From a virus, in the IMG/VR virus record IMGVR_UViG_3300009183_000015, positions 1 through 40,201 of that record: 40,201 bases of DNA. One strand, written 5' to 3'. This document shows positions 16,968-36,839 of the stretch, in pieces. The number at the start of each line of letters is the position of its first letter. Position 1 is the first letter of the stretch. The translations under genes and the position numbers were made by a program. A model generated the notes under the pieces. That model saw nothing but the letters and a program-made list of their open reading frames with translations. It did no database searches and was not told the DNA's origin.

Positions 16968-16979
16968 CTCACAGGCTGA

Positions 16980-17026
16980 CCCCTGAAGGTCTGGTGCTCG
17001 ACCCACCAGCTTTCAGGGGTTTTTTA
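16980..17026 (+). terminator. Intrinsic terminator
   Basis: CCCCTGAA (16980-16987) pairs with TTCAGGGG (17012-17019), and an inner helix CTGGTG/CACCAG (16991-16996 with 17004-17009) stacks on it. A run of seven T follows directly (17020-17026). It lies between the 50-residue basic gene and the replication genes, so it should reduce transcription into them unless anti-termination or a later promoter operates. Confidence 0.85.
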
Positions 17027-22756: not shown

Positions 22757-22957
22757 ATGAAATGGAAAGCAAAAGTAGAAATTCCATTTACTGGTCAAGT
22801 CAGACATCGCAGAGTGTTTGCTTGGAAAAGAACAAAAGTTGGTGATTACATTGTCTGGCTTGAGTTTTATGGCATAGAGGAGAGATTTTTTATGTCTGTA
22901 ACTGGAAATGGATGGTGGACTCAATCAAAAAAGTACACCCTTGAATACATGTATTGA
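22757..22957 (+). CDS. 66-residue beta-rich protein, unknown
   Basis: ATG 22757 is preceded by the TTGAAAGCAATGT element also found, nearly identical, before 17939 and 27400. The product is aromatic and basic (KWKAKVEIPF, VFAWKRTKVGDYIVWLEFYGIEERF, GWWTQSKKYTLEYMY) and probably a small beta sheet. No motif was recognised. It is separated from the next gene by the hairpin region preceding HNH copy 2. Confidence 0.7.
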   Translation: MKWKAKVEIPFTGQVRHRRVFAWKRTKVGDYIVWLEFYGIEERFFMSVTGNGWWTQSKKYTLEYMY

Positions 22958-22986
22958 AAGAAAAAAATGGAACTGGTAAAATTGTG

Positions 22987-23076: not shown

Positions 23077-23553
23077 ATGTTGACTTTTGAAAAAGTAAAT
23101 TCCGTCTTTGAATACAGGGATGGGTTGATATACAAAAAACTGAAATCTGGCGTTGTGTCAAGCAGATCATCTGGAACTGCCACTAGCAATGGATATGCAA
23201 AGGTGGGCATAGACGGTAAAAGTTATTTGGTTCATCGAGTCATCTATTTGATGCAACACAAATTTTTGCCAGATTTTATTGATCACATCGACAACAACCC
23301 ATTGAACAACAAAATTGAAAATTTGAGGGCTTGTTCAAGGGGGCAGAACAAGATGAATGCAAGAAAGCACAAATCAAATAGATCTGGGCATAAAGGCGTT
23401 TCATTTCATAAGAAGTCACAGAAGTGGATTGTTGAAGTTCAAGTAAACAAAGTAAGAAAGTACTTGGGAATTTATTCGGACTTTGATCTTGCTTGTCTTG
23501 TGTCCGATGAGGCAAGAAATTTATATCACAAGGAATTTTCAAATCATGATTGA
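23077..23553 (+). CDS. HNH homing endonuclease with AP2-type domain (copy 2)
   Basis: A 158-residue protein. ATG 23077 has GAGG 6 nt upstream. HNH core: HRVIYLMQHKFLPDFIDHIDNNPLNNKIENLRACSRGQN with D69-H70, N78, N82 and N91. An AP2-like domain spans residues about 104-152 (GHKGVSFHKKSQKWIVEVQV, KYLGIYSDFDLACLVSDEARNLYH). It shares the same domain plan as copy 1 but little sequence, so the two are not recent duplicates. It lies between two conserved genes and its stop overlaps the next ATG by 8 nt, a typical clean insertion at a gene boundary. Confidence 0.92.
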   Translation: MLTFEKVNSVFEYRDGLIYKKLKSGVVSSRSSGTATSNGYAKVGIDGKSYLVHRVIYLMQHKFLPDFIDHIDNNPLNNKIENLRACSRGQNKMNARKHKSNRSGHKGVSFHKKSQKWIVEVQVNKVRKYLGIYSDFDLACLVSDEARNLYHKEFSNHD

Positions 23554-23875
23554 GATAAACCCTGAGAAAGCCATTCGTTACATCCAAGAGCATGCAGAGA
23601 AATATGCAAAAGCAAAAGGTGATGTAGCGTACACAGAGAATTACCTGAAGGTGGTTAAGTCACAACAGATGAACAAGAGTGAATCTAGCTCTCTTGGTCA
23701 ACGAGAAGCAGATGCCTATGCAAGTGCTGAGTACAAAGAATCCATCACTGCCCATAAACAAGCCATTGAAGAAGAAGCGCACCTGAAGTGGATGCTGACA
23801 GCAGCACAGGCAAGGATAGAAGTGTGGAAGACACAGGAATACTCCAAACGCTCTGAGATGCGGAACTTGGGATGA
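23546..23875 (+). CDS. Conserved helical phage protein, unknown
   Basis: A 109-residue, mostly helical, charged protein. ATG 23546 follows AAGGA by about 11 nt and sits inside the HNH stop region. The pattern YAKAKGDVAYTENYLKVVKS, SLGQREADAYASAEYKESITAHKQAIEEEAHLKWMLTAAQARIEVWKT is one I recognise from many phages next to recombination genes; no function is established. It overlaps the Mom-like gene by ATGA (23872-23875). Confidence 0.75.
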   Translation: MIEINPEKAIRYIQEHAEKYAKAKGDVAYTENYLKVVKSQQMNKSESSSLGQREADAYASAEYKESITAHKQAIEEEAHLKWMLTAAQARIEVWKTQEYSKRSEMRNLG

Positions 23876-24537
23876 AAGTAATTCCAATTCAATCTTATGA
23901 GGTAGAGCCTTGGCTGTTGCACAAGCATTACGCCAAACGCATACCTTCAATTAGCTATGCTTTTGGATTGTTTGAAGACGGTAATTTGGTTGGTGTTTGC
24001 ACATATGGAACGCCATCATCAGCACCTTTGCGAGACGGCATAGCAGGTCCAGAAAATGCCAAATATGTGCTGGAATTAAATCGCTTGTGTGTGGACACAA
24101 AGATAAAAAACGCAGCTTCCATGCTGGTTGGCAGAAGCCTTCAAATGTTGCCAAAACCATCTATTGTCGTCAGCTATGCCGATACAGAACAAGAACATGT
24201 TGGATATGTCTATCAGGCTTGCAATTTCACTTACACAGGTTTAAGCGCCAAGCGTACCGATTGGAAGATTAAAGGAATGGAGCAATTACATGGGCAGACT
24301 ATTGCCGACATGAGTCGAGGTTGCGAAGGATCAAGAGCGGACTTCATGCGCAACAAATTTGGTGATGATTTTTATTTGGAAGATAGAGCCAGAAAGCATC
24401 GTTATATTTTTGTAACAGGCAAAAATAAACAATTAAAACAATTAATAAAATATAAACACGAGCCATATCCAAAAGGCGAAAGCAAAAAATACGATGCTGG
24501 CGGCAAAGTTGTAACTCAAGCACTTTTGTTTTTATGA
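23872..24537 (+). CDS. Mom-like DNA modification protein (GNAT fold)
   Basis: A 221-residue protein of the phage Mom-like type. Features are LHKHYAKRIPSISYAFGLFEDGNLVGVCTYG (residues 16-46), a GNAT-like central sheet, VLELNRLCVDTKIKNAASMLVGRSL with the acceptor-binding helix, and VVSYADTEQEHVGYVYQACNF. Mu Mom converts adenine in DNA to N6-methylcarbamoyl-adenine and protects against restriction. That this protein modifies DNA is inferred from family resemblance. It is held between conserved genes by ATGA overlaps on both sides, so it should be made early with replication genes, unlike Mu Mom, which is late. Confidence 0.75.
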   Translation: MKVIPIQSYEVEPWLLHKHYAKRIPSISYAFGLFEDGNLVGVCTYGTPSSAPLRDGIAGPENAKYVLELNRLCVDTKIKNAASMLVGRSLQMLPKPSIVVSYADTEQEHVGYVYQACNFTYTGLSAKRTDWKIKGMEQLHGQTIADMSRGCEGSRADFMRNKFGDDFYLEDRARKHRYIFVTGKNKQLKQLIKYKHEPYPKGESKKYDAGGKVVTQALLFL

Positions 24538-27399: not shown

Positions 27400-27969
27400 A
27401 TGGAACGTGAATGGCAACTTGCTCATCCGCTGCATGATGTTGATGACATTGTGGAGATGGCTGATAGTGTGTTTGGTAAGGAGGCTGATGGAATACTTAC
27501 GAGAGACAGGAATGTGTTCCGTAAGAATGTGACCATCACTGCTACTACCCAACTGTTTGACAAGGGTAGAGAGTTCTTAGCTGTTTGCCGGACTAAGCCT
27601 GAACACAAGAAGATTGTGGTTGATGGATTCCTTGACCATGAACTGATTGAATCTAAGCTGCTGGGATACTGCTGGTTTGACCGTGGTGGGTATACGACCT
27701 ATGCTAATGAGGAGATCTCAAATGCCAAGTTCCACCATTTGGACTTATCTCTTCCTGCTAGACAACGTGTTAAATTAATCCATGAGATGATTGACCAACA
27801 TATCTTGTGGGCAAGTACTTGGGGTATTCCTGTTATTTGTTCAACAAGTATCCGTAGTGAGCATGATGGGTTTATGAAAATCCATAAGAAACGTGGATTT
27901 ACAGTAAACGGTTCATATGCTTGGATCAGAACTGAGAATGGTTTAAAGGGTTTACATGAAAAAGCCTAA
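27400..27969 (+). CDS. GNAT-like protein at the head of the packaging module
   Basis: A 189-residue protein. ATG 27400 directly follows TTGAAAGGCAATGT, the same element as before 17939. The sequence (EREWQLAHPLHDVDDIVEMADSVFG, HKKIVVDGFLDHELIESKLLGYCWFDRGGYTTYANEEI, AKFHHLDLSLPARQRVKLIHEMIDQHILWA, GIPVICSTSI, GFMKIHKKRGFTVNGSYAWI) follows the strand-helix order of GNAT acetyltransferases, ending with a typical KRGF motif. The pyrophosphate loop (Q/RxxGxG/A) is degenerate (LPARQRVKL), so catalysis is uncertain. It overlaps the putative small terminase by 14 nt. Confidence 0.6.
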   Translation: MEREWQLAHPLHDVDDIVEMADSVFGKEADGILTRDRNVFRKNVTITATTQLFDKGREFLAVCRTKPEHKKIVVDGFLDHELIESKLLGYCWFDRGGYTTYANEEISNAKFHHLDLSLPARQRVKLIHEMIDQHILWASTWGIPVICSTSIRSEHDGFMKIHKKRGFTVNGSYAWIRTENGLKGLHEKA

Positions 27970-28441
27970 AGACGCTGATTTGCTTTTTGGTGAAATAAGG
28001 CCGGAAGGTAGCTTGGTTACTTCTCCTGAAGAACTGGAAAAGAAGAAGCACTTCATGAAAATGAAGCGGCTTGAGAAAAGGGCTATGGGTTTGGCTACTG
28101 GTGAGAAGTTTCCTAAAGAGGAAAAGAAGCCTATCGGTCGACAGAAGTCTATTGTCAATCGGGTTACTGAATACGGTGCTTTGTTCAACAAGCTCAACGA
28201 AGAGAGACTGGCTAAGGGTCTGCCTCCTTTGAAGACAGCAATGGAGGTACTGATTGATGCCATGCAATCTGAAGAAATTGATATCAAGGATAAAGCCAGG
28301 ATTGCTGACAAGCTGGCTCCGTTTGAATCATCTCGTGCCCCCATTATTTCAATTGAGCATGTGAATAACGTGAACAAAGAGGAAGAGGTGTCTGCTGATG
28401 ATGCCCTTGATGATTTCTTGACGGCCCTACGTAAAGTTTGA
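27956..28441 (+). CDS. Putative terminase small subunit
   Basis: A 161-residue protein, basic in the N-terminal half (KKPKDADLLFGEIRPEG, EKKKHFMKMKRLEKRAMG) and ending with a helical segment TAMEVLIDAMQSEEIDIKDKARIADKLAPFESSRAPIISIEHVNN and an acidic tail. The TPxxVLxxAM...IDLKxKAxIADKLAPFE pattern occurs in small packaging proteins that precede large terminases. The true terminase large gene is 2 kb downstream, after an HNH insertion and four small genes, so the assignment stays tentative. Confidence 0.55.
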   Translation: MKKPKDADLLFGEIRPEGSLVTSPEELEKKKHFMKMKRLEKRAMGLATGEKFPKEEKKPIGRQKSIVNRVTEYGALFNKLNEERLAKGLPPLKTAMEVLIDAMQSEEIDIKDKARIADKLAPFESSRAPIISIEHVNNVNKEEEVSADDALDDFLTALRKV

Positions 28442-28448
28442 CATTAGA

Positions 28449-28477
28449 TTGACAATAAAAAAGGTCTGTTGCATAAT
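28449..28477 (+). promoter_or_regulatory. Strong sigma70-type promoter abutting HNH copy 3 start codon
   Basis: TTGACA (28449-28454, perfect -35) and CATAAT (28472-28477, five of six of -10) are separated by exactly 17 bp. Only six bases lie between the -10 box and ATG 28484, so the expected transcription start coincides with the start codon, giving a leaderless mRNA. No Shine-Dalgarno is present in that position. Confidence 0.7.
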
Positions 28478-28483
28478 CTACTT

Positions 28484-29041
28484 ATGACAAGCAGACCTAG
28501 CAAAGACCTTACGGGGCAAGTTTTTGGCAGACTAACTGTTGATGGCTTTAGTCATATAAAAAAATATGACAGCGGAAGAACGCAAGCCATGTGGCATGTG
28601 ACTTGTTCTTGCGGCACAAAAAAAATTGTGTACGGCAACAACATGCTTAACGGCAGTGTGAAGGGTTGTGGCTGTTTAAGAAAAGAAGGCTTAAACAAAA
28701 AGGAGCGTGGCGAAGCTAGTTTTAATTCCAAGTATGGGATGTACAAGAAAAGCGCAGAACGAAGGTCGTTTGAATTCCATTTAACAAAGGATCAGTTCAG
28801 ATCTATTGTGGTGCAAAATTGCGCTTATTGCGGCAGCGCACCTTCTGGAGTTCACCATGCTACCCACTGCTATGGGTCGTTTGTTGGCAATGGGGTGGAT
28901 AGAATTGATTCTTCAAAGGGATACACTGTGGATAACTGTGTGCCTTGCTGCAAAACTTGTAACCACATGAAGCTTGACCATTCAGTTGATCACTTCATCG
29001 ACCACATTCAAAAGATATTGCAGCATTTGCGTAAAGTGTAA
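28484..29041 (+). CDS. HNH endonuclease with zinc-binding Cys clusters (copy 3)
   Basis: A 185-residue protein. It begins with a DLTGQVFGRLTV strand pair, then C41-x-C43 and C62-x-C64 (CSC, CGC) as a first zinc site, which is typical of phage HNH proteins that read DLTGxxFGRLTV. The nuclease centre has NCAYCGS (C113, C116), NGVDRID (136-142), VPCCKTCNHMK (C155, C156, C159, N160, H161). It differs from copies 1 and 2, which use AP2 domains. It lies between the putative small terminase and virion genes, with its own promoter. Its last residues (LRKV stop) match the end of the upstream gene (LRKV stop). Confidence 0.9.
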   Translation: MTSRPSKDLTGQVFGRLTVDGFSHIKKYDSGRTQAMWHVTCSCGTKKIVYGNNMLNGSVKGCGCLRKEGLNKKERGEASFNSKYGMYKKSAERRSFEFHLTKDQFRSIVVQNCAYCGSAPSGVHHATHCYGSFVGNGVDRIDSSKGYTVDNCVPCCKTCNHMKLDHSVDHFIDHIQKILQHLRKV

Positions 29042-29070
29042 TAATCCCATTACTTTCATGAAAGGTTAGT

Positions 29071-30221: not shown

Positions 30222-30409
30222 TGGACGATCACAGCACAACCTTTCGGCTAAAGCTGTCTTCTCAAGCAGAGACATGCGCTAGGAAAACTCTTGAGTGGCT
30301 ACAAAAGGATCTTCAAGGAGATCGTGAACTAGCCCCTCAGGACGTTTACTACCTTGCGTCTGCTGCTGACCTGTTGCTGACCATGCGTGACGTGTATGGC
30401 AAAAAGTGA
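30221..30409 (+). CDS. Small helical protein preceding the large terminase
   Basis: A 62-residue protein. ATG 30221 lies in a TGATG overlap, within a 16-bp sequence identical to that at the start of the gene at 22475. It has two likely helices (LSSQAETCARKTLEWLQKDL and PQDVYYLASAADLLLTMRDVYG). It overlaps the terminase gene by 14 nt. A small-terminase-like or adaptor role is conceivable for such a gene, but it is too short for a typical small subunit. Confidence 0.65.
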   Translation: MDDHSTTFRLKLSSQAETCARKTLEWLQKDLQGDRELAPQDVYYLASAADLLLTMRDVYGKK

Positions 30410-36777: not shown

Positions 36778-36820
36778 GCTTTAAAGCTTTTCTGAAGGGG
36801 CTCCGAAAGGGGCTCCTTTG
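36775..36820. other. Palindrome and short direct repeats after the capsid gene
   Basis: AAGCTTTAAAGCTT directly follows the capsid stop and is a perfect 14-bp palindrome. AAGGGGCTCC is then repeated (36795-36804, 36807-36816), and AAAGG/CCTTT around GGCT could form a small hairpin. No T-run follows, so it may protect mRNA ends or attenuate expression rather than terminate fully. Confidence 0.45.
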
Positions 36821-36839
36821 GTAAAGCATGGAGAAAGCA

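Follow-up and report, generated by a model that had tools for sequence, protein, structure and literature searches.

How a homing gene that has inserted into a foreign operon can be expressed there without harming it is an old question that has been answered mainly for T4-like phages. The genes I-TevI, I-TevII, I-TevIII and segB, and mobE of Aeromonas phage Aeh1, have their promoter within a hairpin, with the result that the ribosome site is masked in long transcripts and left free in short ones (PMC2988022). For the hidden HNH insertion of ShiLan, in the mycobacteriophages, the authors propose leaderless initiation and name no promoter (PMC11855218). In the Deinococcus-Thermus phylum, a -10 box adjoining the reading frame drives leaderless mRNA, a common cellular pattern (PMC12340547). 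A promoter starting on the ATG itself does without a ribosome site and takes up only a few bases, and could therefore work almost anywhere; thousands of phage genomes could be screened for such a layout from their sequence alone. Here we describe a candidate for it, upstream of an HNH gene.

The window, i.e. the whole stretch of 40,201 bases that was analysed, has a podovirus-like layout with terminase, portal and capsid genes at 30387, 31991 and 35620, respectively. The gene called HNH1 (28484-29041, + strand) encodes an endonuclease VII-like HNH protein of 185 aa and is predicted to be leaderless, transcription being expected to start at or beside 28484. The protein matched the PHROG HNH and endonuclease VII families with E values of about 1e-16, no Pfam HNH model matched it, and residues D139, R140, N151 and N160 are invariant in the alignment of its relatives. 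Judging from its sequence, HNH1 appears to be a free-standing mobile HNH endonuclease gene with a putative role in homing. It follows a gene of 161 aa with no assigned function (27956-28441, + strand), whose 3' end was identified by locus comparison as the insertion site of HNH1. Elsewhere in the window we noted a Mom-like DNA modification gene (23872-24537; phrog_1384, E value 2.4e-53), and the two most stable local hairpins, at 16973-17022 (-29.7 kcal/mol) and 36781-36830 (-27.6 kcal/mol), the latter directly 3' of the capsid gene.

A promoter scan detected a -35 box TTGACA (28449-28454, + strand) and a -10 box CATAAT (28472-28477, + strand) upstream of HNH1, separated by 17 nt. The -10 box is followed by the 6 nt CTACTT (28478-28483) and then by the ATG (28484-28486), a geometry that the earlier note had described exactly. 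Eleven of the 12 positions agree with the sigma70-type consensus, which may not be that of the host, the only departure being CATAAT for TATAAT. No other site of at least 11/12 is present on either strand of the window. Dinucleotide shuffles contain 0.52 such sites per window on average (sd 0.90), so that one 11/12 site somewhere in the window is unsurprising and its position is the unusual part: by our rough estimate, about 0.002 sites per window are expected on the right strand and 5 to 8 nt before a gene start. Between positions 1 and 20000 of the window, sigma70-like sites are depleted, with 7 observed against 24.3 in shuffles (sd 5.4). The earlier note had also claimed that HNH1 lacks a ribosome site, and this is confirmed: no usable Shine-Dalgarno site precedes the ATG, and the sole Shine-Dalgarno-like run, AAAAAAGG, ends at 28464 and is wrongly spaced, 19 nt from the ATG being too far. 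A core Shine-Dalgarno word is present upstream of 28 of the 54 likely genes of the window. On these sequence features we consider it fairly probable that the site serves to express a free-standing mobile HNH gene, from its own sigma70-type promoter and as a leaderless message. The host RNA polymerase would begin the transcript at the A of the ATG or at most one or two bases away from it. Translated as a leaderless mRNA, this message would free HNH1 from any need for a ribosome site or for the promoter of a neighbour.

Relatives of the upstream gene are present in 72 IMG/VR loci, and in none of them is this gene followed by an HNH1 relative, except for a single contig, 3300027759_000342 (L003, L004, L164 and L324). 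The latter is the same phage, being 100% identical to the window over 6,483 bases, and was for this reason rejected as independent support. The HNH1 layout is thus known from one phage only. In the closest relatives the empty junction measures 32 nt (52 nt in L010, L011 and L014), e.g. ...TTTGCGTAAAGTGTAATAATCCCATTACTTTCATGAAAGGTTAGT-ATG, and contains neither TTGACA nor CATAAT. Comparison with L045 and other relatives, in which the site is empty, places the insert approximately at 28428-29025 (+ strand); L045 matches window positions 29026-29070 (approximate limits). About 600 nt long, the insert interrupts the end of the upstream gene, and both genes stay complete: the HNH1 reading frame terminates in the original ...LRKV-stop of the upstream gene, which has received a re-coded end (CCTACGTAAAGTTTGA) from the insert. 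Since the junctions of close relatives have no HNH gene and no promoter, we deduce that the promoter arrived with the insert, and the proposal that a mobile HNH gene had brought its own promoter is borne out in this respect.

Such rebuilding of the ends of entered genes was observed for HNH1, at the 3' end of the upstream gene (28426-28441 and 29026-29041), and for the HNH gene of Pseudomonas phage PSA11 (L076), which rebuilds the start of a small MPLKKGKS-type gene. L010, L011 and L014 carry, at the HNH1 insertion point, a 20-bp tandem duplication of the upstream-gene end with a re-coded first copy, possibly the footprint of a lost insertion.

The frequency of this layout among HNH genes was measured on all fetched loci, using ORFs of at least 100 aa with their first ATG taken as the start, made non-redundant at 80% identity, and with HNH genes assigned by profile homology. 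A box was counted when at least 5 of the 6 positions of the -10 element matched, together with a TG extension or else a -35 element giving 10/12, and when it ended 5 to 8 nt before the ATG. The contigs come from mixed hosts, and some of them, e.g. L413 (a Chitinophagales genome), belong to groups using other promoter types. Such a box was found in 13 of 232 HNH genes and in 2 of 464 other genes of the same loci (odds ratio 13.7, one-sided p 2.6e-5). Its distance to the ATG is exactly 6 nt in 8 of these 13 genes, among which no core Shine-Dalgarno word was found (0/13; flags raised by the loose word TGAT were discarded and the count was repeated with core words). Considering all boxes within the last 45 positions, 13 of 33 lie at 5 to 8 nt in HNH genes (p 2.2e-6) and 2 of 14 in other genes (p 0.36). 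The enrichment persists for AT-rich upstream regions only (10/160 HNH versus 2/247 other genes, p 0.002) and after removal of all previously seen examples (7/226 versus 2/464, p 0.007). One of the box-bearing genes is gene 72 of Streptomyces phage Annadreamy, with TGCTATAAT-GTTTAC-ATG. A first positional test, run on 159 HNH relatives with our own start calls, had shown only a slight excess, with 11 boxes at 6 to 8 nt for about 5.7 expected by our estimate from the remaining positions. The first control set was seemingly as box-rich, but 12 of its 13 matches were HNH genes that had been missed by the start caller or belonged to HNH3 loci (see below), which was corrected in the class test. PF13392 found almost no match in 58 cellular genomes.

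As judged from sequence, the -10 layout predicted to be leaderless is thus a real and recurrent trait of a minority, about 6% of the sampled HNH genes. The same -10-to-ATG distance, which the earlier note suggested seeking in related HNH genes, does recur in this minority (13/232) and in the three contexts of HNH3, and about 94% of the 232 genes have no such box. Consequently, the general statement that the note had made about mobile endonuclease genes fails for the class.

The promoter match of HNH1 could be fortuitous, the gene being weakly expressed by read-through from the upstream operon. This would resemble the situation in T4, where seven free-standing endonuclease genes, of the seg/mob type, are promoter-less cassettes (PMC2988022), and it would fit the number of 11/12 sites obtained in shuffles and the genes around HNH1, which all lie in the same direction. 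We nevertheless regard it as unlikely: the site is exactly where it would act and is confined to the insert, the start codon would be buried in a read-through RNA, which has no ribosome site to offer, and the class enrichment and the HNH3 case both argue against chance.

The burial of the start codon is predicted from a hairpin, AGGTCTGTTGCATAA-TCTAC-TTATGACAAGCAGACCT (28462-28498, + strand), detected by RNA folding, which joins the -10 box and the start codon of HNH1 on its opposite arms, CATAA of the -10 box being part of the 5' arm. Folded as RNA it reaches -15.7 kcal/mol, a stability matched by none of 200 shuffles (z -6.4), and the start codon is paired. The RNA beginning at 28484 is devoid of the 5' arm and has an ordinary structure (z +1.2). 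With the -10 box in the 5' arm and the expected start at the ATG, the geometry implies that the gene's own transcript would be without one arm. In a read-through transcript from the upstream gene the hairpin may, with less certainty, bury the HNH1 start codon, so that only the gene's own transcript, without the 5' arm, would be translated. This suggests that read-through transcription is ignored rather than merely unneeded.

At z below -3, hairpins at the start codon were present in 2.5% of HNH genes and 0.9% of controls, which is not a clear enrichment. Strong hairpins over or beside the start codon were seen in other HNH relatives, in L082 (708-710), L128 (971-973) and L129 (about 983), with z between -3.6 and -5.7. 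A further HNH relative, in Xanthomonas phage phiXaf18 (L077, 581-642), has an annotated promoter and terminator over its start codon; this annotated 'terminator' has GGTCCC/GGGACC arms just 5' of the ATG and could be a start-site hairpin.

The same palindrome may be read as a DNA operator: the promoter would be repressed by binding of the HNH protein or another regulator, just as the late promoter of I-TevI is by I-TevI itself. Autorepression by I-TevI is established (PMC2988022), and the inverted repeat of HNH1 does span the -10 box and the start site. However, this analysis showed no similarity between operator and homing site, and the palindrome of HNH3 differs in sequence. We find this reading distinctly unlikely and, being compatible with leaderless transcription, it would be an addition to the leaderless unit rather than its replacement.

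The window also offers an internal contrast to HNH1. HNH2 (23077-23553, + strand), which combines HNH_3 and AP2 domains, has a leader and a GAGGTG ribosome site and is not leaderless. A promoter-like site, TTGAAA-17-TAAAAT with a TG extension (22954-22982, + strand), lies upstream of it and ends 5 nt before an int-alpA RNA (Rfam RF02996; 22987-23052, + strand; E value 2.5e-6) located in its leader. The 11/12 site and the TG-extended 10/12 site of the window are thus each found upstream of an HNH gene. An int-alpA RNA was also observed upstream of the HNH genes in L436 and L437.

Searching with HNH2 identified a relative of the HNH_3/AP2 type, HNH3 (2486-2974, + strand), which is unrelated to HNH1 and yet shows, in the same phage, the same layout. 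Its ATG comes 7 nt after an extended -10 box TGTGGCATAAT (2468-2478, + strand), with no Shine-Dalgarno site, the upstream sequence being TAA-TGTGGCATAAT-TCAAAGC-ATG. Relatives 74-90% identical in further loci bring the number of distinct cassettes, including that of the window, to six, all of which retain TGGCATAAT-TCAARGC-ATG. These cassettes occupy three upstream contexts whose mutual identity is only 14-32%. Across the six, 0-1 changes occur in the 16 nt preceding the ATG, while fourfold-degenerate sites of the gene differ by 13-53%. As the homology starts at the -10 box, the mobile unit begins, on its left, with this promoter element. From our reading of the junctions, HNH3 has entered a glycosyltransferase gene at its start, which the 3' end of HNH3 rebuilds. 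A hairpin TTCAAAGCAT/ATGCTTTGAA (2478-2505, + strand) is predicted by folding over the HNH3 start codon. Its pairs are kept in 5 of the 6 cassettes (two changes give G-U pairs), three of them are broken in L444, and no covariation supports it among the six; hence the evidence for the -10-to-ATG unit is stronger than for this hairpin.

The conserved 16-18 nt of HNH3 might instead be the end of the cassette recognised by a recombination or nuclease activity and not a promoter, given that they mark the left limit of homology in all three contexts. We give this little credence, because they contain a good extended -10 box at leaderless distance from an ATG with no ribosome site, and because unrelated HNH genes of different sequence share only the -10 box and its spacing.

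Translation of HNH1 from the in-frame TTG at 28469, on a longer transcript and with an incidental -10 likeness, would have AAAAAAGG as ribosome site 4 nt upstream, but was rejected as highly improbable since AAGG would need a wider spacing, TTG codons initiate weakly, this one lies inside the long-transcript hairpin, and the N-termini of relatives agree with the ATG start. A group I intron or an intron-encoded endonuclease was also rejected: at gathering thresholds, Rfam models retrieved only int-alpA from the entire window, with no intron RNA around HNH1, and the insert sits between two complete genes.

Beyond this locus, we propose tentatively, and with rather less assurance than for HNH1 itself, that leaderless expression could be an evolved and recurrent strategy of phage HNH homing cassettes. 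The cassette would carry a -10 box at its edge, start transcription on its own ATG and silence read-through mRNA with a start-codon hairpin, thereby being uncoupled from the promoters and ribosome sites of the invaded locus. The leaderless transcript anticipated in the earlier note is favoured for HNH1 by the layout and by its recurrence in a minority of genes, and does not extend to a general rule, since about 94% of HNH genes are without such a promoter. Expression independent of neighbouring genes, also anticipated there, holds in part: a promoter or a -10 box is carried by the insert, but the HNH3 cassette takes its -35 region from whatever DNA lies upstream, which makes its independence only partial.

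Like the seg and mob cassettes of T4, HNH1 and HNH3 would be free-standing genes placed between phage genes, the T4 cassettes encoding HNH or GIY-YIG enzymes (PMC2988022). They differ in that the T4 cassettes rely on upstream phage promoters, whereas HNH1 and HNH3 bring with them a -10 box if not a full promoter. The ShiLan insertion resembles HNH1 as a mobile HNH insert with neither intron nor intein, but it lies out of frame within a gene (PMC11855218). Its sequence has no -10-like box at 5 to 8 nt and has GGAGG upstream of one candidate GTG, and we rejected it as a further case for want of a -10-like box in place. It is the sole related leaderless proposal that we found for phage HNH genes, with no promoter named, in a partial coverage of the literature in which an earlier report may have been missed. 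The pattern of Deinococcus-Thermus is a cellular one, common in that phylum (PMC12340547), and only a minority of the mobile HNH genes of phages have the layout described here. Among known systems the T4 I-TevI/Aeh1 mobE group comes closest: in it, as predicted for HNH1, a mobile endonuclease gene has its own promoter and a hairpin in the long transcript blocks translation. In that group the promoter is a middle or late one and the hairpin hides a Shine-Dalgarno site; HNH1 has a sigma70-type promoter, no Shine-Dalgarno site and a paired start codon. As the hidden Shine-Dalgarno site is missing, HNH1 would work in the manner of the hairpin-and-promoter control known for T4 homing endonucleases while being, by this analogy, a variant of it suited to leaderless expression.
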